Positions 287-52,819 of a DNA stretch of 64,000 nt are shown here, in pieces. Within the stretch, counting starts at the first letter, position 1. Each line of letters starts with the position of its first letter. The DNA lies in the IMG/VR virus record IMGVR_UViG_3300012984_000001, positions 1-64,000 of that record; one strand, 5' to 3'. Both the position numbers and the translations under genes were made by a program. A model generated the notes under the pieces. It was not told the origin of the DNA. It worked only from the letters and a program-made list of their open reading frames with translations, and did not search any database. The DNA is from a virus.

Positions 287-318
287 TTGTTTCTTAAAAT
301 AAAAAATACCTATATTTG
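287..318 (+). promoter_or_regulatory. Bacteroidota-type promoter of the first tRNA transcription unit
   Basis: TTG at 287-289 and TATATTTG at 311-318 are 21 bases apart and fit the -33/-7 consensus (TTG, about 20 bases, TAnnTTTG). Transcription should begin around 324-328, giving a 5' leader of roughly 15-20 bases before the ATG at 342. It should drive leader peptide 1, attenuator 1, array 1 and, by read-through, array 2. Confidence 0.8.
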
Positions 319-341
319 TAACTGAAAATAAACATTAAAAA

Positions 342-416
342 ATGCTAAGTATAAACACGATAAATATGATTGCTAGAGTTGGGGATAACTTCCCAAGCAA
401 GAGGTTTATGGTGTAA
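342..416 (+). CDS. Leader peptide 1 (24 aa), codon sensor for tRNA array 1
   Basis: ATG at 342, TAA at 414-416, just after the promoter. Codons 4-16 (351-389) are ATA AAC ACG ATA AAT ATG ATT GCT AGA GTT GGG GAT AAC, i.e. INTINMIARVGDN. Every codon is read by a tRNA of the ten-gene array downstream: Asn, Thr, Met, Ile, Ala, Arg(TCT), Val, Gly, Asp, and AUA by an Ile2-type CAT tRNA. All ten tRNAs are represented. After the run, codons AAG AGG TTT (399-407) can pair over 9 bp with the 5' arm of the terminator (441-449). A ribosome stalled in the run would leave 399-407 free. A ribosome at the stop would cover it. Role inferred: sensor in ribosome-mediated attenuation. Translation itself is not proven. 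Confidence 0.85.
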   Translation: MLSINTINMIARVGDNFPSKRFMV

Positions 417-438
417 ATTAAACAAATTACAAATATAT

Positions 439-472
439 AAAAGCCTCTTAATAAATTTAAGAGGCTTTTTGT
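439..472 (+). terminator. Attenuator 1: intrinsic terminator upstream of tRNA array 1
   Basis: The arm at 439-450 (AAAAGCCTCTTA) and the arm at 458-469 (TAAGAGGCTTTT) form a perfect 12-bp stem with a 7-base loop, followed by a T-rich run. The hairpin ends only a few bases before tRNA-Ala. A terminator here makes sense only if it is conditional. The competing pairing is 399-407 with 441-449. Confidence 0.85.
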
Positions 473-475
473 TTT

Positions 476-547
476 GGGAGATTCGTATAGTGGTTATTAC
501 AATAGTTTTGCAAACTATAAACACGGTTTCGATTACCGTATCCTCCA
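476..547 (+). tRNA. tRNA-Ala(TGC), array 1
   Basis: Cloverleaf with a 5-bp anticodon stem ATAGT/ACTAT, loop TTTGCAA and T-loop TTCGATT. The acceptor has G3:T70, the alanine identity pair, which fixes the identity over Cys. One A:C mismatch is present in the acceptor. No CCA is encoded. Confidence 0.88.
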
Positions 548-560
548 CAGAAATAAATAT

Positions 561-633
561 TCGTGTGTATTTCAGTTGGTAGAAAGCAATCCTGATAAGA
601 TTGTATGCGAAGGTTCAAGTCCTTCCGCACGAA
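561..633 (+). tRNA. tRNA-Ile(GAT), array 1
   Basis: Acceptor TCGTGTG/CGCACGA, anticodon loop CTGATAA on stem CAATC/GATTG, T-arm GAAGG/CCTTC. Reads ATT/ATC; ATT is in leader peptide 1. CCA not encoded. Confidence 0.9.
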
Positions 634-639
634 CAAATT

Positions 640-711
640 GCGAGTATGGTGTAAAGGCTAACATAGGAGACTTCCAATCTTTTGATAACAGTTCGAGTCT
701 GTTTATTCGCT
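640..711 (+). tRNA. tRNA-Gly(TCC), array 1
   Basis: Acceptor GCGAGTA/TATTCGC with one G:U, anticodon loop CTTCCAA, T-loop TTCGAGT. The anticodon stem has two G:U pairs. Reads GGA/GGG; GGG is in leader peptide 1. Confidence 0.88.
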
Positions 712-715
712 CAAT

Positions 716-787
716 GGTCTATTTGTGTAATGGTAGCAGTACTGGCTTGTCACGCCAGAGGCGAGAGTTCGATTCTCTCATAGACCG
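716..787 (+). tRNA. tRNA-Asp(GTC), array 1
   Basis: Perfect acceptor GGTCTAT/ATAGACC with G73, anticodon stem CTGGC/GCCAG, loop TTGTCAC. G73 is the usual Asp discriminator. GAT is in leader peptide 1. Confidence 0.92.
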
Positions 788-791
788 CAAT

Positions 792-862
792 GGCTTAGGT
801 AGTTTAATGGTAAAACACTTCTCTTGTAAAGAAGATACGGGGTTCGAATCCCACGTAAGCCT
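792..862 (+). tRNA. tRNA-Thr(TGT), array 1
   Basis: Anticodon stem CTTCT/AGAAG with loop CTTGTAA. The acceptor GGCTTA/TAAGCC is sound for six pairs, and the T-stem is imperfect. Reads ACA/ACG; ACG is in leader peptide 1. Confidence 0.85.
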
Positions 863-866
863 CAAT

Positions 867-937
867 ACCTTGTTTGCATAATGGAAGTGCCGATGTTTTA
901 CATGCATCTGGCGGTAGTTCGATTCTACCACAAGGTA
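867..937 (+). tRNA. tRNA-Val(TAC), array 1
   Basis: Perfect acceptor ACCTTGT/ACAAGGT, A73, anticodon loop TTTACAT on stem GATGT/GCATC, T-loop TTCGATT. GTT is in leader peptide 1. Confidence 0.9.
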
Positions 938-943
938 CAAATT

Positions 944-1016
944 GTCGGTATAGCATAAATGGAAATGCAGAACACTTCTAATGTTCCGATTGGCAGTTCG
1001 AATCTGTCTATCGACT
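944..1016 (+). tRNA. tRNA-Arg(TCT), array 1
   Basis: Acceptor GTCGGTA/TATCGAC with one G:U, anticodon stem GAACA/TGTTC, loop CTTCTAA, T-loop TTCGAAT. Reads AGA/AGG; AGA is in leader peptide 1. Confidence 0.9.
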
Positions 1017-1025
1017 CAATTAAAT

Positions 1026-1098
1026 CGCCTCGTAGCTCAATCGGTGGAGCAGCGCACTCATAATGCGAAGGTCAAGAGTTCGAAACTCTTCGAGGCAA
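1026..1098 (+). tRNA. tRNA with CAT anticodon and C1:A72 mismatch (initiator-like, elongator Met or Ile2), array 1
   Basis: With T8-A9 fixed by the D-stem GCTC/GAGC, the acceptor is CGCCTCG/CGAGGCA. That leaves C1 opposite A72, the hallmark of bacterial initiator tRNA. The anticodon loop is CTCATAA. The anticodon stem lacks the three G:C pairs usual for initiators, so elongator Met or lysidine-modified Ile2 remain open. The two AUA codons in leader peptide 1 suggest that one CAT tRNA of this array is Ile2. Confidence 0.85.
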
Positions 1099-1103
1099 CA
1101 AAA

Positions 1104-1176
1104 GATTTCATAGCTTTAATGGTAGAGCGTCCGACTGTTAATCGGGTGGTTGAAGGTTCGAATCCTTCTGAAATCG
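1104..1176 (+). tRNA. tRNA-Asn(GTT), array 1
   Basis: Perfect acceptor GATTTCA/TGAAATC with G73, anticodon loop CTGTTAA on CCGA/TCGG, T-arm GAAGG/CCTTC. AAC and AAT occur three times in leader peptide 1. Confidence 0.92.
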
Positions 1177-1219
1177 CAAAATAAATTTGGTAATCCAAAA
1201 TTTTATTTTAAATTTGCAT

Positions 1220-1292
1220 TGTGAGATAGAGCAGTTGGTAGCTCGTGTGGCTCATAACCATAAGGTCACGGGTTCGAATCCCGTTCTCGCAA
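1220..1292 (+). tRNA. tRNA with CAT anticodon (Met or Ile2), array 1
   Basis: Seven-pair acceptor TGTGAGA/TCTCGCA with a weak T1:A72 pair. D-arm GAGC/GCTC and loop AGTTGGTA resemble Bacteroidota initiator tRNA. Anticodon stem TGTGG/CCATA, loop CTCATAA, T-arm ACGGG/CCCGT. Second CAT tRNA of the array; which of the two reads AUA cannot be told from sequence alone. Confidence 0.9.
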
Positions 1293-1306
1293 CTAAAAAA
1301 TACATT

Positions 1307-1378
1307 ATGAAAAATTTAAGTTTTTGTTTATCTTATTGGTTGTCGTTTAAATACGATACGGGATTTGATATGCAATAA
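1307..1378 (+). CDS. Leader peptide 2 (23 aa), codon sensor for tRNA array 2
   Basis: ATG at 1307, 14 bases after the last array 1 tRNA; TAA at 1376-1378. Codons 4-14 (1316-1348) are TTA AGT TTT TGT TTA TCT TAT TGG TTG TCG TTT, i.e. LSFCLSYWLSF. Each is read by a tRNA of the seven-gene array downstream, and both serine boxes are represented (AGT for GCT; TCT/TCG for TGA). Nine bases after the run, 1358-1365 (ACGGGATT) can pair over 8 bp with the terminator arm 1407-1414. I see no separate promoter, so it is probably transcribed by read-through from array 1, placing array 2 behind two attenuators. Trp plus Cys in so short a peptide would be very unusual by chance. Confidence 0.85.
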   Translation: MKNLSFCLSYWLSFKYDTGFDMQ

Positions 1379-1406
1379 TTAAAAAAAATAATTGTATTTA
1401 AAATTT

Positions 1407-1437
1407 AATCCCGTTCGAAAGTTCGGGATTTTTTTTT
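1407..1437 (+). terminator. Attenuator 2: intrinsic terminator upstream of tRNA array 2
   Basis: AATCCCG (1407-1413) pairs with CGGGATT (1424-1430) across a 10-base loop and is followed by nine T. tRNA-Tyr begins four bases later. The competing antiterminator pairs 1407-1414 with 1358-1365 inside leader peptide 2. Confidence 0.85.
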
Positions 1438-1440
1438 ATT

Positions 1441-1509
1441 GGGAGTAATTCTTCGGAGAAGCCAGCTCTGTAAAAGCTCAAATAGTAGGTTCGATTCCTT
1501 CTACTCCCA
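1441..1509 (+). tRNA. tRNA-Tyr(GTA) without a long variable arm, array 2
   Basis: Perfect acceptor GGGAGTA/TACTCCC, loop CTGTAAA. Only about six bases lie between anticodon and T stems, and the D-arm is compact (TTCT/AGAA). Bacterial tRNA-Tyr normally has a long variable arm, so this is a shortened form. Confidence 0.85.
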
Positions 1510-1512
1510 CTT

Positions 1513-1585
1513 AGGCGTATGGTGAAATGGTAAGCACAACAGTTTTAAGAGCTGTCAATTGCGAGTTCGAGTCTCGCTACGCCCA
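1513..1585 (+). tRNA. tRNA-Leu(TAA) without a long variable arm, array 2
   Basis: Anticodon loop TTTAAGA on ACAGT/GCTGT, T-arm GCGAG/CTCGC, acceptor with an A1:C72 mismatch. The variable region is five bases, unlike normal long-armed tRNA-Leu. Reads TTA/TTG, three times in leader peptide 2. Confidence 0.85.
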
Positions 1586-1591
1586 CAAAAA

Positions 1592-1678
1592 GGAAGGACA
1601 AGCCAATTGGTGGTGGCCGCAGTCTTGAAAACTGTTAGGAGTTAATGACTCGTGTGGGTTCGACTCCCACTTCTTCCG
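1592..1678 (+). tRNA. tRNA-Ser(TGA), array 2
   Basis: Acceptor GGAAGGA/TTCTTCC, G73 as usual for Ser, anticodon loop CTTGAAA, and a long variable arm (87 nt in total). Reads TCN codons; TCT and TCG are in leader peptide 2. Confidence 0.92.
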
Positions 1679-1683
1679 CAAAT

Positions 1684-1766
1684 AGAAAGTGAAACACATA
1701 GGATGTGTGCCTCCCTGCTAAGGAGTGCGAGGGTAAAACCTTTAGTTTCGAATACTACTCTTTCTG
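1684..1766 (+). tRNA. tRNA-Ser(GCT), array 2
   Basis: Anticodon stem CTCC/GGAG with loop CTGCTAA, long variable arm, G73. Acceptor AGAAAG/CTTTCT. Reads AGT/AGC; AGT is in leader peptide 2. Confidence 0.88.
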
Positions 1767-1770
1767 CAAT

Positions 1771-1841
1771 GCTTCTCAACGTAGGTTGTGTCAATCGGTC
1801 TCCAAAACCGTATTGTAAAGGTTCGAATCCTTTGAGTTGCG
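1771..1841 (+). tRNA. tRNA-Trp(CCA), degenerate acceptor and D-arm, array 2
   Basis: Anticodon arm CGGT/ACCG with loop CTCCAAA and T-arm AAAGG/CCTTT are clear. The acceptor GCTTCTC/GAGTTGC has two T:T oppositions, and the D-arm is poor. G73 fits Trp. TGG is in leader peptide 2. Confidence 0.75.
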
Positions 1842-1846
1842 CTATT

Positions 1847-1919
1847 GGGAATATGGCAGATAAGGTTATTGCGGAGGACTGAAAATCCTTAGGAGTTGGG
1901 TCGGTACCAACTGTTCCCA
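1847..1919 (+). tRNA. tRNA-Phe(GAA), array 2
   Basis: Acceptor GGGAATA/TGTTCCC, A73, anticodon loop CTGAAAA on AGGA/TCCT. The T-loop is the unusual GTCGGTA instead of TTCGANN. TTT is in leader peptide 2 twice within the run. Confidence 0.87.
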
Positions 1920-1925
1920 CAAATA

Positions 1926-1994
1926 TCAGGAATGCTGATGGTGAAGCGAATGGATTGCAAACTCATTTTTATCGGTTCGATTCCGATTCCTGAT
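1926..1994 (+). tRNA. tRNA-Cys(GCA), array 2
   Basis: Perfect acceptor TCAGGAA/TTCCTGA with T73, the Cys discriminator. Anticodon loop TTGCAAA with one mismatch at the loop-closing pair. TGT is in leader peptide 2. It is the last gene of array 2, 10 bases from the convergent array 3. Confidence 0.88.
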
Positions 1995-2004
1995 TCTAAA
2001 ATAG

Positions 2005-2076
2005 TGACTCATAAGCGATTCGAACGCCTATCCTCGGATTCGTAGTCCGAAATTCTATCCATTGAAATAATGAGCC
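2005..2076 (-). tRNA. tRNA-Arg(ACG), array 3
   Basis: Minus strand. Acceptor GGCTCAT/ATGAGTC with one G:U, anticodon loop CTACGAA on TCGGA/TCCGA, T-loop TTCGAAT. Reads CGN after A34-to-I editing; CGC is in leader peptide 3. Confidence 0.9.
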
Positions 2077-2079
2077 TTA

Positions 2080-2164
2080 TGGTGCGAAGTGTGGGAGTCG
2101 AACCCACAAAGCTACAATATTCTAAGTATTGCCACTATTCCTTTCGTTGTTAAGCCAACTTCGC
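2080..2164 (-). tRNA. tRNA-Leu(TAG) with encoded CCA and enlarged D region, array 3
   Basis: Acceptor GCGAAGT/ACTTCGC, A73 and an encoded CCA; apart from this gene I see no encoded CCA among the tRNAs here. Anticodon stem CAATA/TATTG, loop CTTAGAA. The D region is longer than normal and the variable region is only about seven bases, not the long arm expected for Leu. CTT is in leader peptide 3. Confidence 0.87.
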
Positions 2165-2169
2165 TTTAG

Positions 2170-2242
2170 GGTGTAATGTGAGAATCGAACTCACGTTTTT
2201 TGCTTCACAGGCAAACGACTTAACCGTTAGTCCAAAAACACC
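2170..2242 (-). tRNA. tRNA-His(GTG), array 3
   Basis: Anticodon stem TTTGC/GCAAA with loop CTGTGAA, D-stem GACT/AGTC, T-arm GTGAG/CTCAC. An extra 5' G pairs with C73, the G-1:C73 identity pair of bacterial tRNA-His. Two U:U oppositions in the acceptor. CAT is in leader peptide 3. Confidence 0.88.
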
Positions 2243-2247
2243 ATTTG

Positions 2248-2319
2248 TAGGAGTATCAAGAATCGAACTTGAATAACTAGAGTCAAAGTCTAGTATAATA
2301 ACCATTATATCATACTCCA
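2248..2319 (-). tRNA. tRNA-Gln(TTG), array 3
   Basis: Acceptor TGGAGTA/TACTCCT with an unpaired first position (U1:U72), anticodon stem CTAGA/TCTAG, loop CTTTGAC, T-arm TCAAG/CTTGA. A weak first pair is normal for Gln. CAA is in leader peptide 3. Confidence 0.9.
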
Positions 2320-2324
2320 ATTTG

Positions 2325-2396
2325 CATTCCGTATGGGAATCGAACCCATGTCTCCTGATAGAAAGTCAGACGTGTTAACCACTTCACTAACGGAAC
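2325..2396 (-). tRNA. tRNA-Glu(TTC), array 3
   Basis: Acceptor GTTCCGT/ACGGAAT (G1:U72), G73, anticodon loop CTTTCTA on CTGA/TCAG, T-arm ATGGG/CCCAT. GAA opens the cognate run of leader peptide 3. Confidence 0.9.
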
Positions 2397-2402
2397 TTTT
2401 TG

Positions 2403-2473
2403 TCTAATAGTCAGGATTTGAACCTGAGTACTCCTCCTTCCAAGGGAGGCATGAAACCGTGCTTCGCTACTAG
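2403..2473 (-). tRNA. tRNA-Pro(TGG), first gene of array 3
   Basis: Acceptor CTAGTAG/CTATTAG, A73, strong anticodon stem CCTCC/GGAGG with loop CTTGGAA, T-arm TCAGG/CCTGA. D-arm short and irregular, C at position 8. CCG is in leader peptide 3. Its 5' end is 7 bases from the terminator hairpin. Confidence 0.88.
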
Positions 2474-2480
2474 AAATAAA

Positions 2481-2509
2481 AAAAACCACTCTGATTAAGA
2501 GTGGTTTTT
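2481..2509 (-). terminator. Attenuator 3: intrinsic terminator upstream of tRNA array 3
   Basis: On the minus strand AAAAACCACTCT (from 2498-2509) pairs with AGAGTGGTTTTT (from 2481-2492), a 12-bp stem with a 5-base loop, followed by more T and then tRNA-Pro. As in the other two arrays, the terminator precedes the genes it would silence. The hairpin is symmetrical, so on the plus strand it could also serve as a stop before 2714. Confidence 0.82.
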
Positions 2510-2532
2510 AAGTTTTTATATTGATAACAACA

Positions 2533-2604
2533 CTATACAGAAATTCCACCCATAAGTAAATTATGTTGCGGAAGGCGTTCAATATTATTTTTAATAGTTT
2601 TCAT
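2533..2604 (-). CDS. Leader peptide 3 (23 aa), codon sensor for tRNA array 3
   Basis: Minus-strand ATG at 2604-2602, TAG at 2535-2533. Codons 9-14 (2580-2563) are GAA CGC CTT CCG CAA CAT, i.e. ERLPQH, one codon for each of the six tRNAs of array 3 and no other. A further CTT follows. Eleven bases after the run, GGGTGG (2551-2546) can pair with CCACTC of the terminator arm (2504-2499), 6 bp including one G:U, so the antiterminator is weaker than in leaders 1 and 2. The ATG lies only five bases after the -7 box, so the mRNA may be leaderless. Confidence 0.83.
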   Translation of the reverse strand: MKTIKNNIERLPQHNLLMGGISV

Positions 2605-2608
2605 GTTG

Positions 2609-2616
2609 CAAACATA
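2609..2616 (-). promoter_or_regulatory. -7 promoter element for leader 3 and tRNA array 3
   Basis: TATGTTTG on the minus strand matches TAnnTTTG. No good TTG lies at the expected distance upstream. Initiation would fall at or just before the ATG of leader peptide 3. Confidence 0.55.
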
Positions 2617-31360: not shown

Positions 31361-32416
31361 TTATTTTTCTTCTTTATTAAAGTAACATAAGTAATAATAC
31401 ATCTGCTTTTGGTCGTCCCAACCCTTCTCGAAGAACTTTTCAGCACTTTCCGGATTAACAAAGTCAAGTTTTATTGTCATGCCGGTATCAAGAGAAATAG
31501 TTCCTTTCCATTTACGTCTAGCATCGGTTACTGCAGAGTTTGAAATAGGGAAACTTGAAATATCTTCGATGGAGTATTTTTCACCTTTATCTACTTTATA
31601 GTTTTTGAATTCTGAAATTAAATCAGGATTGTCAAGCACTTCATTTAAGTAGCTAGTTTCTTCAAATTCGTCATTTTTAGCAAAGTAGTTCATGGAACGA
31701 TTCATGAACATGACCTCTTCTTTTTTATCCTCGGCAGGAGCAACTACTTCTTTAGCAAAATCCTGAGCAAATTTTAGATATTTTTTAGTCAAGAAATTTT
31801 CGTCATGGAAAGCATCAACACCAAGAAAATGTTCCAACCAGTATCTGGCATCATATCGGTTACTGTCGATAGAAAGCACCTTATATCCTTCTTCTTTTTT
31901 GTAATTGAAAATCAAAACTCCTTTGTCAAGTTTGTCTAAGGAAATTCCTTGTTTGAAATTCATTTTCAAGTTATTGTCGTTTTCGTCAATCTCCAAGAAA
32001 TCAGCTTGAATCTCACTTTTGAATACACCAATCGCGTCAACCACGTTATTATCAATACTTAAGTTTGTTAAGTAAGTCACATAAACTTCACCCGATTTGA
32101 TATGCGGATGATTTGAAACCTCATACAAATGCTTTGTAATTTGTTTTGATGCATCCACAATGCAATTTGGATTATCAAAAATCTGTGAAGCATATTTGTA
32201 CATTTCGTTGTAGTCCAAATCTACTTCATGTGCAAACTGATAATAATTTTCTTCTTTTTCTCTGAATGGTTTAAAAAAGAACTCTTTAATTAATGGCTGA
32301 ACTTCATCTTCTAAACGATAAGTTTCGTTTGATAGAAAAATAGGTTCGTTTCGGCTTTTGTTCCCAATCTTGTGGAGAACTAAATCATTGATTTGTAAAT
32401 TAAATAGATTTATCAT
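31361..32416 (-). CDS. Nucleoid-associated protein (NdpA/YejK family)
   Basis: 351 residues. The opening NDLVLHKIGNKSRNEPIFLS then LIKEFFFKPFREKEENYYQF matches the NdpA (DUF37) pattern HxVGNK ... LxxYFLxPF. The family binds DNA and is common in Bacteroidota. In a phage it may compact DNA or antagonise the host protein. Confidence 0.7.
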   Translation of the reverse strand: MINLFNLQINDLVLHKIGNKSRNEPIFLSNETYRLEDEVQPLIKEFFFKPFREKEENYYQFAHEVDLDYNEMYKYASQIFDNPNCIVDASKQITKHLYEVSNHPHIKSGEVYVTYLTNLSIDNNVVDAIGVFKSEIQADFLEIDENDNNLKMNFKQGISLDKLDKGVLIFNYKKEEGYKVLSIDSNRYDARYWLEHFLGVDAFHDENFLTKKYLKFAQDFAKEVVAPAEDKKEEVMFMNRSMNYFAKNDEFEETSYLNEVLDNPDLISEFKNYKVDKGEKYSIEDISSFPISNSAVTDARRKWKGTISLDTGMTIKLDFVNPESAEKFFEKGWDDQKQMYYYLCYFNKEEK

Positions 32417-33359: not shown

Positions 33360-34607
33360 TTAAATTGAATTCCATTTTTTATGCAGAGTTTCTGCGTGTT
33401 CTTGTTTGCTAACCTTATTGTAGTGGAGTAACATTTTACTGTCTTTGCTCCATCCCATAATTGTGGAAAGCACAGAGTCTTCTACTTTTCCGTAATTTAA
33501 AGTTGCGAATGATTTTCTTCCGACATGAGAACTGATTAATAAGTATTTCTTGTAGTATCCAAACTTTTTGCGCTTAAGTTTATTATCAAACAGTTTCCCA
33601 TACATCATATTATCTATTCCGGCTAATTGGCAGACTATTTTTATATTGATGTTAAATTCAGTTTTGCTGATTTTTGGTGGCAAGTTCCCGAAATTAGAAT
33701 CAAGTATGTTTTGAATTACAGAATGAACGGGTATGACTACTTTTGCTCCGGTTTTCTGTGTTTTAATTTTGATAAAACCATCTGAAATGTTCGAAGTATC
33801 TAGTTTTAGAAAATCTGACGCGCGCAATCCAGTGTATGCTGATATCAGAAAGTTTTGCTTAGTAATATCCAATTCATAGTGTTCCGAAAAGTCGTAATCG
33901 ATAATTTTTTGAATTTCGGCTTCCGATAAATAAACTCCTTCTAAATCATCATCTTTATCAAAATAGATTCTTTGTGTAAACGATTTATCTACTTCGATAT
34001 TGTGTTCAAGCGCGCGATTAAGGAAAAAGCGGAACCGGCCAATGTGTCTTTCGATTGTAGATACTTGGTAAAACTCAGTTTCCAGATAGTCGGCAAACGA
34101 CTTTAAATCATTAATACGGATATTTCTTAGCTGTAGTTTTTCTCCGATTACTGCTTCATACTCCGAAACTATCTGCATAAACTTTTTGTACTGATTTTGA
34201 AGCGGAATACCCATTTTCTTTTTAGCGGAAACATTCCAATTATCAGCCTCGTTTTCGAGCCACCACAATGCAAAATCACATAGATAAATAGTGTGATTTG
34301 GATTGAATAGATTTGCTTCTTCTTTTGGGCGATTAAAGCTGTTTTTGATAACTTTTTCAAGCCACGCTTTGTCGGTCAAAATGCCTTTGCAAAAATCAGT
34401 ATTGTATGCTTTAAGAATATCAGTTTTAAGTTGCTGAATAGAAATATTCACTTCTGGATTATCTATTACACTTTGATTTTCCGCATCCCATTCCGAATCA
34501 TGTAACATAATATTTGTGCTACATGAAATGTCCAAACGAGAAAAACGTATTCTTACAAGGAGTTTCTTCACCTCCTTTCTGCCTTGTAAACTATATGTTA
34601 TGTTCAT
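33360..34607 (-). CDS. Tyrosine recombinase / integrase
   Basis: 415 residues, phage SAM-like N-terminal domain (DFALWWLENEADNWN; FADYLETEFYQVSTIERHI) and catalytic domain with R262 (TGLRASDF), H361-x-x-R364 (SSHVGRKSFATL) and Y396 (LHYNKVS). The Bacteroidota integrase type. No attachment site or tRNA-adjacent att is apparent, so it may serve in integration, circularisation or dimer resolution. Confidence 0.88.
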   Translation of the reverse strand: MNITYSLQGRKEVKKLLVRIRFSRLDISCSTNIMLHDSEWDAENQSVIDNPEVNISIQQLKTDILKAYNTDFCKGILTDKAWLEKVIKNSFNRPKEEANLFNPNHTIYLCDFALWWLENEADNWNVSAKKKMGIPLQNQYKKFMQIVSEYEAVIGEKLQLRNIRINDLKSFADYLETEFYQVSTIERHIGRFRFFLNRALEHNIEVDKSFTQRIYFDKDDDLEGVYLSEAEIQKIIDYDFSEHYELDITKQNFLISAYTGLRASDFLKLDTSNISDGFIKIKTQKTGAKVVIPVHSVIQNILDSNFGNLPPKISKTEFNINIKIVCQLAGIDNMMYGKLFDNKLKRKKFGYYKKYLLISSHVGRKSFATLNYGKVEDSVLSTIMGWSKDSKMLLHYNKVSKQEHAETLHKKWNSI

Positions 34608-44280: not shown

Positions 44281-45849
44281 ATGAAATTAAAAGTAGGAAC
44301 AGATTTTTCAGGAGTCGGAAGCTTTGACCAAGCTCTTCAAAGGATAGGGGTTGATTATGAAACAGTTTTCGCGTGCGACATGGACAAATACGCAAGACAT
44401 ACATATCTCCTAAACTTTGGAACTGATGCCGACATGGAACTTCTGAAAACCAAAGAAGTAAAAAAGATTGATGATATTTACTACCGCGGACTCGTGAACA
44501 CAAAACTAAAACCTCCGACAGAAGAAGAATGGCAGTTTGTGAAGGATAATGAGGAGAGAGTGGCACGCTTATTCAGTTTTTACTATCCGTGGAATGTGTA
44601 CAGCAGAGTTATTCCGGAGGAAAGTTTGGATGTTTCTGTACACACATGCCCATGCCAGGCGTTTTCGCTGGCCGGCAAAAGAAAAGGAGAAGAAGACAGA
44701 AGAGGAATCCTATTTTACAATTCACACGAGTTCATAGCCAAAAACTTGCCAAAATCCTTCATATTCGAGAATGTAAAAGGACTTTTGAGTGATGATAAAG
44801 GAAAAACTTTCGGAAGATGGATTGATTTGCTTGGTGGAAAATCAGTGAATGGACAGCCAGTTTTGATGCCTCACGTAGAATCTGTTCCGTATCATATTTA
44901 TTACAAAGTATTGAATGCAAAGGAACACGGTGTTCCTCAAAATCGTGAAAGAATTTTTATTATTGGAATCCGTGATGATGAAGATGATATTTTTAGTTTC
45001 CCAAATCCTATTCCACTAGAAAAACGTTTAAAAGATGTTTTGGAAAAACCGGAAGATTTTGAAAGTTTTGAGGTCTATAGCGAATACATGGAAAAGTATT
45101 TTTTAAGTGAAAATATGATAGAATGTTTGTTAGCAACAAACATAAAACACGAAGCAAAAGGAAACGGGTTTAAATTTGAATGTAAAAGTTTTAATGATAT
45201 TGCAAATTCAGTAACAACGAAAGCAGGGCAAAGAGGAACAGACAATTTTATTTCAGAAGAAATAATACAACTAAATGACCCTATTCATTCAAACGATAGA
45301 GTTTATTCAGAAGAAGGAATTTCGCCAACGCTAAACACAATGCAGGGAGGCAATCGACAGCCTTTTGTTCAAGTTTCAGATGAATACAAAATACTTGGAT
45401 ATACCCGAGATTCAAAAGGAAAAGTTGTTTCAAGACATGAAAAAGAGTTTGCAGGAACTATAACTACATCTTCTGGGGGTGGAGGAAGTACGGACCAATT
45501 CATAGTAATAAATTCAAACACTAAAAAAGGTTTTGAAACTGCAGAAGAAGAAGAAGAAGATTCTATAAACTTTTCAGTTCCGACCTCAAAAACAAGACGT
45601 GGCCGAGTAGGAAAACAAGTTTCGCAGACTTTAGATACTCAATGCAATCAAGGCATTTATACGAGAAAAAGAATCCGTCGATTAACAGAAAGAGAGTGCT
45701 TCAATCTTATGGACTTCAACAAAGATATTCCAGGTGTTCCAGATTTCAAATGGGAAGTTTCTTCAACTCAGGCTTACAAACAAGCTGGTAATTCTGTAGT
45801 AGTGAAGCATTTCGTCGATTTAATAGAAAATTTAGGTCTTAAAAAGTAA
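44281..45849 (+). CDS. DNA cytosine-C5 methyltransferase
   Basis: 522 residues. Motif I DFSGVGSFDQAL (8-19), motif IV CPCQAFSLAGKR with catalytic C125, motif VI ENV at 163-165, motif VIII-like AKEHGVPQNRERIFIIG, and motif X near the C-terminus (QAGNSVVVKHF). All key elements are present. The target-recognition region (about 235-460) is unusually long. Likely protects phage DNA from restriction. Confidence 0.92.
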   Translation: MKLKVGTDFSGVGSFDQALQRIGVDYETVFACDMDKYARHTYLLNFGTDADMELLKTKEVKKIDDIYYRGLVNTKLKPPTEEEWQFVKDNEERVARLFSFYYPWNVYSRVIPEESLDVSVHTCPCQAFSLAGKRKGEEDRRGILFYNSHEFIAKNLPKSFIFENVKGLLSDDKGKTFGRWIDLLGGKSVNGQPVLMPHVESVPYHIYYKVLNAKEHGVPQNRERIFIIGIRDDEDDIFSFPNPIPLEKRLKDVLEKPEDFESFEVYSEYMEKYFLSENMIECLLATNIKHEAKGNGFKFECKSFNDIANSVTTKAGQRGTDNFISEEIIQLNDPIHSNDRVYSEEGISPTLNTMQGGNRQPFVQVSDEYKILGYTRDSKGKVVSRHEKEFAGTITTSSGGGGSTDQFIVINSNTKKGFETAEEEEEDSINFSVPTSKTRRGRVGKQVSQTLDTQCNQGIYTRKRIRRLTERECFNLMDFNKDIPGVPDFKWEVSSTQAYKQAGNSVVVKHFVDLIENLGLKK

Positions 45850-46899: not shown

Positions 46900-46972
46900 T
46901 TCCACATAGCTCAGTCGGTAGAGCAAATGACTCATAATCATTAGGTCACAGGTTCAATCCCTGTTGTGGAAA
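46900..46972 (+). tRNA. tRNA-Met(CAT), outside the arrays
   Basis: Perfect acceptor TTCCACA/TGTGGAA, A73, D-stem GCTC/GAGC with loop AGTCGGTA, anticodon stem ATGA/TCAT with loop CTCATAA, T-loop TTCAATC. Third CAT tRNA of the phage. It abuts the acceptor piece of the tmRNA, suggesting processing from one transcript. Confidence 0.92.
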
Positions 46973-46973
46973 C

Positions 46974-47275
46974 AATTAAGTTGTTAAGTTCTTTAATTTT
47001 TTGTTTGGACGGGAGTTCGACTCTCCCCGACTCCACGAATCGAGTCCGTGTAAAGTGTTCGATGGTTTGGCACACCGATATACAAAGTGCTATTTTTGGG
47101 GTCGCCTGGTTTTGACAGCAAAGCGAATTAGAAGAAATAGACTTAATTAAAAATAACTGCAAAAGTTATAAACCTTTTTGGAAACGAAGCAAAACTTGCT
47201 GCGTAATCAACGAAATTTGTGATAGCGAAAATATCACTAAACAGCCGGAGGAGATTACTTCAAATCCGGTTTAAT
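46974..47275 (+). ncRNA. ssrA: Circularly permuted (two-piece) tmRNA
   Basis: Acceptor piece first: T-arm GGGAG TTCGACT CTCCC (47011-47027), acceptor strand CGACTCC (47028-47034), A73 at 47035. After a 62-base intervening segment the coding piece starts at 47098: GGGGTCG pairs perfectly with CGACTCC, with G3:U70, the alanine identity pair, then CCTGGTTTTGACAG, the tmRNA D-loop signature. A hairpin at 47153-47169 precedes the tag frame GGA AAC GAA GCA AAA CTT GCT GCG TAA (47180-47206), tag GNEAKLAA. P2 pairing joins the pieces: ACTTAA, AAGAA, AATTA and CAAA of 47119-47146 match 46984-47007. Further stem 47219-47237 and CCGGA/TCCGG near 47245-47269. It rescues stalled ribosomes and tags the peptide for proteolysis. 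The outer ends are estimates. Confidence 0.88.
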
Positions 47276-47300
47276 TAAAAACAAAAAAACTACCAAAACT

Positions 47301-50878: not shown

Positions 50879-51211
50879 CTATTTTCCTGTCCAAATCAAA
50901 TCTCGGTAAAAAACCAAAAGATAAGGATTGCCATTTTGGGTCATTGCAGTAGCTTTAAATTTATCAAAAATAACCTCGCTTCCTACTTCTATAGTGTACC
51001 TGTTTTTTCCACCAAATATCCTTGAAAAAAAACTTTGAGGCTTTCTAGGGCACTCAGTTCCAATAGACCTAATTATTCCTCGTTTCTGCTTCTCGTTCGC
51101 ATCAACTATACCACTAATATCAATTCCTGATTTAGTTTTGTTCTCGTGGAAAATTTCTTCAACAACAACTATTTGATTAAGCGCTTGTCCTTTGAATTTA
51201 TTTGGTGTCAT
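50879..51211 (-). CDS. groES: GroES-like co-chaperonin
   Basis: 110 residues from ATG 51211, overlapping the end of groEL by 14 bases. IVVVEEIFHENKTKSGIDIS contains a mobile-loop-like segment, and the beta-barrel follows (GIIRSIGTECP ... YTIEVGSEVIF). Longer than usual GroES insertion between barrel strands (RKPQSFFSRIFGGKNR). Presumably the lid for the phage GroEL. A longer start at 51235 is less likely. Confidence 0.8.
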   Translation of the reverse strand: MTPNKFKGQALNQIVVVEEIFHENKTKSGIDISGIVDANEKQKRGIIRSIGTECPRKPQSFFSRIFGGKNRYTIEVGSEVIFDKFKATAMTQNGNPYLLVFYRDLIWTGK

Positions 51212-52745
51212 GAGCAAATCTTTTAAGTGTAACAACGTTGTTGGTTCTAAGTAAGTTATTTGAAGCGGATGCTGCGTTTACAAGAGCTGTTTTAACTCCT
51301 TTCGCAGTATCAAGTATTCCGGCTTCGAACATATCTACTTCTTTATAGCCTTTCACATCGTACCCCATAGGATATTTGCCTAATTCTGGCACAGAAACTC
51401 CTGCGTTTGAATGTATTTTTAAGATTGGCGCTTGTATAACTGTTTTTGTTACTTCATCTATATCTAAATCTATAGCTGATAGTAAAGCGATTCCTCCTCC
51501 GGCAACAACTCCTCCATCTTTGGAAGCGCGTACAGCGCAACAAGCATCATCCACTCTAGCTATTTTTTCTTCAACTTCACTTGGAGTTACACCTCCAACG
51601 AAAATAGTAGAAATGCCACCAGATAATTTAGAGATTCTTTCACGAAGATAGTTTTTCTCACCTTCATTTGTTTGAAGTGTAATTTGAGAGTTTAACTCAT
51701 TAATTTTAGCGGTGACTTTTGTTTTGTCGAATTCTGGATTAAGCGTGATAACCGTGTCTTTTTTACCGATTTCAATTCTGTCGCAAGTTCCAAGATAAAC
51801 TGCTTCTTTTCCTTCGTAATTTGTTCTTGAAATACCTTCCAAAAGTTCACAATCTAAAATCAATGACAAATCTCGCATTGTTTCACGATTCTTTTTTCCT
51901 TGATATGGTGGTTTTATAATTGCGAATGGATATTTGTGTTTAATGACATTTTCTAAAATCATACTAGAAATGTCGTGAGACATATCTGATATTATAACAA
52001 TAGGACGCCCGTTGTGTGCAGCATAATCCAAGAAAGGCGTGATTTCATTATGTGTTTGAAAATTAATCAGTGAACATAAAACTAATGGATTGTCGAAGAT
52101 TACGGATTGAGATTCCGGAACATTCACAAATCCTTCGTTTAAATATCCGGCATCAATTGGATTTCCGGCAATGTGTTTAATGAAAGTTTCGTCTGTAAAA
52201 CTACGTTTGTGAGATACTATTCCGAATTCTCCTGACTTGATAAACGCTTCTTGGACAATTTTAGCTATTTCAGAATCTCCATGAGCAGAAGTTTTAGCAA
52301 TATCGAACATTAATTTTTCATTTACAGGAACCGAAATGGAATCGATATATTCAGACACTTTTGATACAGATTCTTCAATTTTGTTTTTGATTTCAATTGA
52401 AGACGTTCCTTTTTTAAGTTCATCCAATGAATATTTGAAAAATGCCTGAGTCAAAACACATACTAGGGTAGTTCCATCCCCAACCACTTCAAATTGTTTT
52501 TTAGAGGCTTCTTTTACTATTTCGCAAGCAATATGTTCGATGCTATTTTCCCAATAAAGATTATGTAATACATCGTGACCGTCTGCAGTTATATTAGGTA
52601 ATCCTCCTGTAGTTTCGAAAAGGACATTTTGTCCACGATACCCCATTGTGCTCGAAACTATGTCACAACACTTGTTTATCCCGTCAAGTAATTGTGATTT
52701 TGCATCTTCTCCACTGACTAGATGCCTTAAAATTGTGTTACTCAT
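51198..52745 (-). CDS. groEL: GroEL chaperonin
   Basis: 515 residues from ATG 52745 (MSNTILRHLVSGEDAKSQLL). ATPase motif GDGTT at 89-93, SSTMGYRGQNVLFE near the N-terminus, SGGISTIFVGGVTPSEVEEK and GGVVAGGGIALLSA in the equatorial/intermediate domain are all GroEL. It lacks the Gly-Gly-Met-rich C-terminal tail, and is about 30 residues shorter than host GroEL. With its own GroES it may fold phage virion proteins. Drawn from a promoter at 52776-52802. Confidence 0.9.
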   Translation of the reverse strand: MSNTILRHLVSGEDAKSQLLDGINKCCDIVSSTMGYRGQNVLFETTGGLPNITADGHDVLHNLYWENSIEHIACEIVKEASKKQFEVVGDGTTLVCVLTQAFFKYSLDELKKGTSSIEIKNKIEESVSKVSEYIDSISVPVNEKLMFDIAKTSAHGDSEIAKIVQEAFIKSGEFGIVSHKRSFTDETFIKHIAGNPIDAGYLNEGFVNVPESQSVIFDNPLVLCSLINFQTHNEITPFLDYAAHNGRPIVIISDMSHDISSMILENVIKHKYPFAIIKPPYQGKKNRETMRDLSLILDCELLEGISRTNYEGKEAVYLGTCDRIEIGKKDTVITLNPEFDKTKVTAKINELNSQITLQTNEGEKNYLRERISKLSGGISTIFVGGVTPSEVEEKIARVDDACCAVRASKDGGVVAGGGIALLSAIDLDIDEVTKTVIQAPILKIHSNAGVSVPELGKYPMGYDVKGYKEVDMFEAGILDTAKGVKTALVNAASASNNLLRTNNVVTLKRFAHDTK

Positions 52746-52775
52746 ATAATTAAATTTAATTTGATTAATAGAAAA

Positions 52776-52802
52776 CAAAAGTACTAATTTTAAAAAAGAC
52801 AA
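52776..52802 (-). promoter_or_regulatory. Promoter of groEL-groES
   Basis: Minus strand: TTG (complement of 52800-52802), about 16 bases, TACTTTTG (complement of 52776-52783). Divergent from and adjacent to the tail-spike promoter. Confidence 0.65.
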
Positions 52803-52819
52803 CAAACATTTCTTGTTGT
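52799..52819. promoter_or_regulatory. Inverted repeat joining two divergent promoters
   Basis: ACAACAA (52799-52805) and TTGTTGT (52813-52819) form a 7-base inverted repeat with a 7-base spacer. Each arm lies at the -33 position of one of the two divergent promoters, so a single factor could control both. Confidence 0.6.

Follow-up and report, generated by a model that had tools for sequence, protein, structure and literature searches.

We found that each of three arrays of transfer RNA (tRNA) genes in the virus record IMGVR_UViG_3300012984_000001 (IMG/VR) stands behind a short open reading frame whose codons match the tRNAs of its own array, with an intrinsic terminator in between. The window analyzed here is the first 64 kilobases (kb) of this 75.7-kb record. 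Judging from the sequence, each array is very probably a transcription unit under ribosome-mediated attenuation, in which the controlled products are the sensed molecules themselves. The evidence lies in the codon-to-tRNA match in the window, in the recurrence of this match in other phages, in the way leader codons follow the gain, loss, and relocation of tRNAs, and in the computed pairing between leaders and terminators.

Three tRNA Arrays and Their Leaders

The phage proteins of the window are 37-59% identical to those of podophages of Flavobacterium, and the Cellulophaga phages are more distant. Between positions 476 and 2476 lie 23 tRNAs that together serve 19 amino acids, with Lys the only one left out, a near-complete spare set split into three blocks of 10, 7, and 6 tRNAs; arrays A and B are on the plus strand and array C is on the minus strand. 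ARAGORN called 18 of the 23 by default, and the other five (Tyr 1441, Ser-GCT 1684, Trp 1771, Cys 1925, and Leu-TAG 2083-2164 on the minus strand) were backed by relaxed ARAGORN and Rfam. Among these five, tRNA-Trp scored 26.4 bits in Rfam, slightly below the cut-off, and Leu-TAG was miscalled by ARAGORN. At each array, the sequence reads in the same order: short frame, intrinsic terminator, tRNAs. Three frames of 23-24 codons with terminators 5' of the arrays had been claimed in an earlier, sequence-only reading of this DNA, and direct reading bore them out (24, 23, and 23 codons). The features are as follows.

311-318, plus strand: promoter -7 box of array A, TATATTTG, of the Bacteroidetes TAnnTTTG type
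342-416, plus strand: leader A, 24 codons, MLSINTINMIARVGDNFPSKRFMV
351-389, plus strand: control run A, 13 codons (codons 4-16), INTINMIARVGDN, covering every tRNA of array A
398-408, plus strand: 5' strand of antiterminator A, CAAGAGGTTTA, which pairs with CCTCTT of the terminator
439-469, plus strand: intrinsic terminator A
476-1177, plus strand: array A, Ala-TGC, Ile-GAT, Gly-TCC, Asp-GTC, Thr-TGT, Val-TAC, Arg-TCT, CAT, Asn-GTT (ARAGORN, Rfam)
1209-1216, plus strand: second promoter-like site, TAAATTTG, immediately 5' of the tRNA-CAT at 1220
1220-1293, plus strand: tRNA with CAT anticodon, between the second promoter and leader B
1307-1378, plus strand: leader B, 23 codons, MKNLSFCLSYWLSFKYDTGFDMQ
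1316-1348, plus strand: control run B, 11 codons (codons 4-14), LSFCLSYWLSF
1358-1366, plus strand: 5' strand of antiterminator B, ACGGGATTT, which pairs with AATCCCGT
1407-1430, plus strand: intrinsic terminator B
1441-1995, plus strand: array B, Tyr, Leu-TAA, Ser-TGA, Ser-GCT, Trp, Phe, Cys (ARAGORN, Rfam)
2005-2476, minus strand: array C, 5' to 3' on that strand Pro-TGG, Glu-TTC, Gln-TTG, His-GTG, Leu-TAG, Arg-ACG
2481-2509, minus strand: intrinsic terminator C
2545-2552, minus strand: 5' strand of antiterminator C, TGGGTGGA, which pairs with CCACTC
2563-2580, minus strand: control run C, 6 codons (codons 9-14), ERLPQH
2533-2604, minus strand: leader C, 23 codons, MKTIKNNIERLPQHNLLMGGISV
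2609-2616, minus strand: promoter -7 box of array C, TATGTTTG

Leader Codons Match the Downstream tRNAs

The control runs are decoded by their own arrays only, and each tRNA of an array is used. The longest run per leader was 13, 11, and 6 codons with its own array and at most 4 with the other two. Control run A, for instance, reads ATA AAC ACG ATA AAT ATG ATT GCT AGA GTT GGG GAT AAC, where the ATA codons need a CAT tRNA as reader, either tRNA-Ile2 or Met (the two are not separable here). Moreover, the match extends to isoacceptors. For Arg, AGA occurs in leader A with Arg-TCT and CGC in leader C with Arg-ACG; for Leu, TTA occurs in B with Leu-TAA and CTT in C with Leu-TAG; for Ser, both AGT and TCT occur in B, together with both Ser tRNAs. 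When the same 22 anticodons were partitioned at random 200,000 times, no partition matched the summed run of 30 codons (random maximum 21), and none matched the in-run coverage of 22/22 (random maximum 17). Unbroken runs of 13, 11, and 6 codons spelling their own arrays, as the sequence-only reading had it, were thus confirmed. Taken alone, leader C is weak: 14% of swapped arrays do equally well.

Same Arrangement in Other Phages

The order of TAnnTTTG box, leader, terminator, and tRNAs recurs in cultured phages from several families, some of them unrelated to the window phage, and the peptides there are different. These phages include the Cellulophaga phages phi38:1, Calle_1, phi4:1, phi17:2, phi19:1, and phi10:1, Tenacibaculum phage Gundel_1, and Maribacter phage Panino; about 12 environmental phages have it as well. 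TAnnTTTG is the flavobacterial sigma-A box (PMC9723704), and in 24 of 35 leaders it is found in the 110 nucleotides that precede the control run. A DNA pattern for phage-type tRNA-Gln gave about 120 environmental loci, among which an automatic score gave further leaders, some of them at arrays composed differently. At locus L188, MMTTKTYQTKQYQPQGGTPKGTTGYVMKSNMIK precedes the array Pro Ala Lys Lys Pro Gly Gln Tyr Thr. At L159, a 129-kb contig, MRTSSTLSLTSLQHLTRSENSTEV precedes His Ser Ser Arg Gln Gln Thr Thr Leu Ile Leu Leu, and a further leader (...CPRPEACENGMQVFE) precedes Pro Pro Arg Cys.

The predicted codon-to-anticodon match also held against swapped arrays, for which the sample was 47 non-redundant, informative arrays immediately preceded by a terminator. 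The own leader region fitted better than every dissimilar swapped array in 27 of them (1.3 expected), and 28 of the 47 scored at least 12, compared with 0.4% of shuffled regions. Long own-array runs were also observed in frames 5' of large mixed tRNA arrays at L211, L171, and L205/L232; these were left uncounted, as they had no adjoining terminator or their arrays decode most codons.

Two further observations concern the surroundings of the leaders. A conserved protein of 48-49 amino acids with a hydrophobic start and an EEKTGKDI end (L084 35062-35208; L094 6269-6418) lies immediately 5' of leader A in phi38:1, Calle_1, and Panino. In the second array of Gundel_1, an HNH-type endonuclease-like frame, recognized by eye (L096 3250-3790), lies between the terminator and the first tRNA, and where it sits the array lacks several members of the usual tRNA set. 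Homology searches with the 48-amino acid protein next to leader A recovered phi38:1 and Calle alone, and phi4:1 and phi19:1 queries matched only themselves. A structural-protein query from near the window arrays found no viral relatives, and the relatives found by terminase and tail queries were without arrays.

Leader Codons Track tRNA Gain, Loss, and Relocation

Contingency counts were made for phages with at least two curated leaders, excluding the last eight codons of each leader. An array tRNA had a cognate codon in its own leader in 164 of 166 cells, and the tRNAs of the same phage's other arrays had no codon in that leader in 228 of 276 cells. For 28 leaders of homologous array types, the concordance between presence or absence of tRNA and codon was 102, compared with 81.8 ± 4.0 when permuted (0 of 20,000 permutations). 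Lys codons occurred in 5/5 A leaders with tRNA-Lys and 0/2 without it, Glu codons in 9/9 C leaders with tRNA-Glu and 1/4 without it, and Leu-TTR codons in 5/5 C leaders with Leu-TAA and 3/8 without it. Where tRNA-Asn is located in array B, those B leaders contain several Asn codons. When a tRNA (Lys, Asn, Glu, or Leu-TAA) is missing or located in another array, its codon tends to be missing or relocated as well.

The closest relative of the window arrays, L154, provides a direct comparison. Its leader A is homologous to that of the window and both end in ARVGDNFPSKRFMV; in L154, a tRNA-Lys separates Ala from Ile and the run includes a Lys codon (AAA), whereas the window has neither. The arrays of L154 cover all 20 amino acids. 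In L128, tRNA-Lys and Arg-TCT are absent, and their codons are absent too.

Antiterminator Pairing and Stall Geometry

Considering that trp-type attenuation geometry had been proposed from the sequence, the pairing of leaders with terminators was computed, and both the antiterminator pairing and the stall boundary supported the proposal. In 36 leaders, the 3' part of the frame can form a duplex with its own terminator's 5' arm, with a summed energy of -431.8 kcal/mol compared with -280.4 ± 14.0 kcal/mol for permuted terminators (0 of 20,000). The distance from stop codon to terminator had a median of 26 nucleotides. Stalls were modeled by placing each codon in the A site, covering 11 nucleotides downstream, and folding the remaining free RNA. 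In these foldings, the antiterminator formed for stalls within the run and not for stalls past it. Subtracting the position of the last control codon from that of the last permissive one gave a median of 0 in 32 leaders, 25 of which were within 2 codons; in the window, the last permissive and last control codons were 16/16 in leader A, 14/14 in B, and 15/14 in C. Once the ribosome is placed on the stop codon, the antiterminator strand lies under it. By textbook definition, a control region ends at the last stall that permits antitermination (PMC1183508). A control-codon frame, a terminator between leader and genes, and an exclusive antiterminator, three structural marks of a trp-type attenuator, were all found by computation.

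When the leaders were folded untranslated, an upstream hairpin hid the antiterminator strand in window leaders A and C. In leader B, the strand was hidden or not according to the fragment folded.

Proposed Mechanism and Its Alternatives

From these features we infer leader translation, antitermination on stalling, and read-through into the tRNAs as the steps of the mechanism. If all cognate charged tRNAs were plentiful, the ribosome would reach the stop codon and cover the antiterminator strand; the terminator would then form, and the tRNAs would not be made. If any one of the cognate tRNAs became scarce, the ribosome would stall within the control run, the antiterminator strand would be free to pair with the terminator arm, and the polymerase would read through, so that the whole set would be made. 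Synthesis would go on until stalling ended, an OR-gated negative feedback. The likely purpose is the emergency replacement of host tRNAs that the host's tRNA decay or an anticodon nuclease defense has removed, and this is considered the likeliest use because the arrays are near-complete sets. More broadly, and with moderate confidence, we regard the arrangement as a widespread module of counter-defense or self-sufficiency, in which silent, isoacceptor-resolved, near-complete sets would be deployed group by group when the ribosome senses a missing member, for example, after the action of an anticodon nuclease.

Several results weigh against this interpretation. The sequence-only reading had each run cover its full array; all anticodons do occur in the runs, but the second CAT tRNA (1220-1293) has its own promoter-like site 5' of leader B and may escape attenuator A. 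No Rfam amino acid leader family exceeded its gathering score at the window leaders: leaders A and B gave no match, and leader C reached 31.2 of 55 bits for Phe_leader and 21.1 of 55 for Thr_leader. Array A of L231 (score 5.9) is a weak case, and L217 also fits poorly, although frames were otherwise present at the same arrays in other phages, and the lack of such frames, which the sequence-only reading had set as a ground for refutation, was not encountered. The second leader of Gundel_1 has kept His and TTA codons, for which the tRNAs are absent from the array. The p value of 7e-74 for the contingency counts is nominal, as the cells share ancestry and are not phylogenetically independent. Untranslated RNA favored the antiterminator in 19 of 32 leaders and did not in 13, and the untranslated state may vary from phage to phage. 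Finally, the phages structurally closest to that of the window lack arrays and carry a single tRNA at most; the module is therefore taken to be dispensable or mobile, a thing that comes and goes.

The main alternative, which is less probable but has a substantial chance of being right, is that the same attenuator serves homeostasis or the sensing of amino acid supply in ordinary infection, rather than acting against tRNA destruction. The sensor reads charged tRNA, hence amino acid starvation would stall the ribosome too, and no pointer to a specific nuclease was found in the window. However, extra tRNA gives no relief from amino acid shortage, and the coverage of 19 (window) or 20 (L154) amino acids, universal host tRNAs included, suits replacement better than codon compensation. 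It is improbable that the leader couples the arrays to translation in a general way, to time expression or to sense ribosome shut-off, with the codon match adding little. The 19 leaders whose untranslated RNA favors the antiterminator would agree with such coupling, but it leaves unexplained why codons follow each array's tRNA content, and untranslated leaders A and C of the window hide the strand. We give even less credence to direct binding of uncharged tRNAs to the leader RNA without translation, as in T-boxes. Terminator/antiterminator control specific to a tRNA is indeed T-box behavior; nevertheless, up to E = 1 the T-box model matched nowhere in positions 280-2620 of the window, and the in-frame runs of 6-23 codons, the start and stop codons, and the run end at a ribosome-footprint boundary speak for a ribosome as reader. 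This candidate was rejected on the missing covariance match and the ribosome-type frame geometry. Short open reading frames are common and small arrays such as C give weak run scores alone, but small functional peptides or chance frames matched through codon usage or composition are hardly credible and were rejected by the swapped-array, shuffled-region, and partition controls, the tRNA match being kept while the peptides differ completely between phages, with tracking at isoacceptor level and antiterminator pairing specific to the own terminator.

Other Features of the Arrays and the Window

The arrays of the window, phi38:1, phi4:1, and Panino are sorted roughly by the first codon base, with A/G-first codons in array A, T-first in B, and C-first in C. 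Exceptions are Ser-GCT (and in some phages Asn) in B and Glu in C, and L188 and L159 do not follow this sorting. The composition of the leader RNA is perhaps its cause.

On the plus strand of the window, 46900-47297 holds a tRNA (CAT) and then a permuted transfer-messenger RNA (tmRNA; Rfam RF04321, 63.7 bits, above the cut-off; ARAGORN tag AKVINLFGNEAKLAA). tmRNAs were also called in phi38:1 and in Panino, where the tmRNA lies within array A. Having ribosome rescue by tmRNA alongside spare tRNAs would make sense in infections where ribosomes stall. The window phage also has genes for an integrase (33360-34607, minus strand), GroEL (51198-52805, minus strand), a DNA methyltransferase (44281-45849, plus strand), and an NA37 nucleoid protein (31361-32416, minus strand).

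Comparison with Known Systems

No description of leader-peptide attenuation of tRNA genes was found in open-licence papers, and in this scope the remark of the sequence-only reading that it knew of no such system stands. The terms leader, attenuation, and terminator are absent from two papers on phage tRNAs (PMC13015707, PMC11025619), and leader peptide, attenuation, and terminator are absent from a third (PMC10264068). Attenuation of tRNA genes by a tRNA-sensing leader thus seems previously undescribed.

If true, these would be the first known attenuators controlling tRNA genes, and attenuation would here read up to ten tRNAs simultaneously. The decades-old question of why phages carry tRNA genes would receive a testable answer for some phages, namely that they are kept for when tRNAs go missing. 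The leaders would be ready-made genetic sensors for the depletion of individual tRNAs, and loss of specific tRNAs is predicted to be common in infected Bacteroidetes cells. With the cultured carriers phi38:1, phi4:1, phi19:1, phi10:1, Gundel_1, and Panino, the idea is already testable.

T-box riboswitches likewise use a terminator/antiterminator switch that answers to the state of a specific tRNA. In T-boxes, the RNA itself binds the uncharged tRNA, mostly of a single kind, and the genes under control are synthetase or amino acid genes; in the phages, the reader would be a ribosome on an open frame. Phage tRNAs are also known to act against tRNA-targeting defenses, as with T4 and PrrC or T5 and PARIS. 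Phage tRNA clusters counter such defenses (PMC10264068, PMC11555353), and the arrays described here could likewise replace damaged host tRNAs. None of the known counter-defense clusters was found described with a tRNA-sensing leader, and no such leader was seen at the arrays of T4, crAss001, cr60_1, and PAU.

The closest likeness is to the leaders of the trp, his, thr, leu, ilv, and pheST operons, which also have a control-codon peptide, mutually exclusive antiterminator and terminator, and the same boundary of the control region (PMC1183508). For flavobacteria themselves, TAnnTTTG boxes and indications that leader peptides attenuate amino acid operons have been reported (PMC9723704). By their anatomy, we filed the phage elements with the trp-type attenuators, and not with the amino acid operon leaders, because the controlled genes are the sensed tRNAs, no Rfam leader match exceeded its cut-off, and no T-box match was obtained. 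In amino acid operons, the controlled genes encode biosynthetic enzymes or synthetases, whereas here they are the tRNAs themselves; unlike those attenuators, the phage leaders have runs that read about 5 to 10 tRNAs at the isoacceptor level, several units share out the genetic code among them, and the whole is borne by phages.

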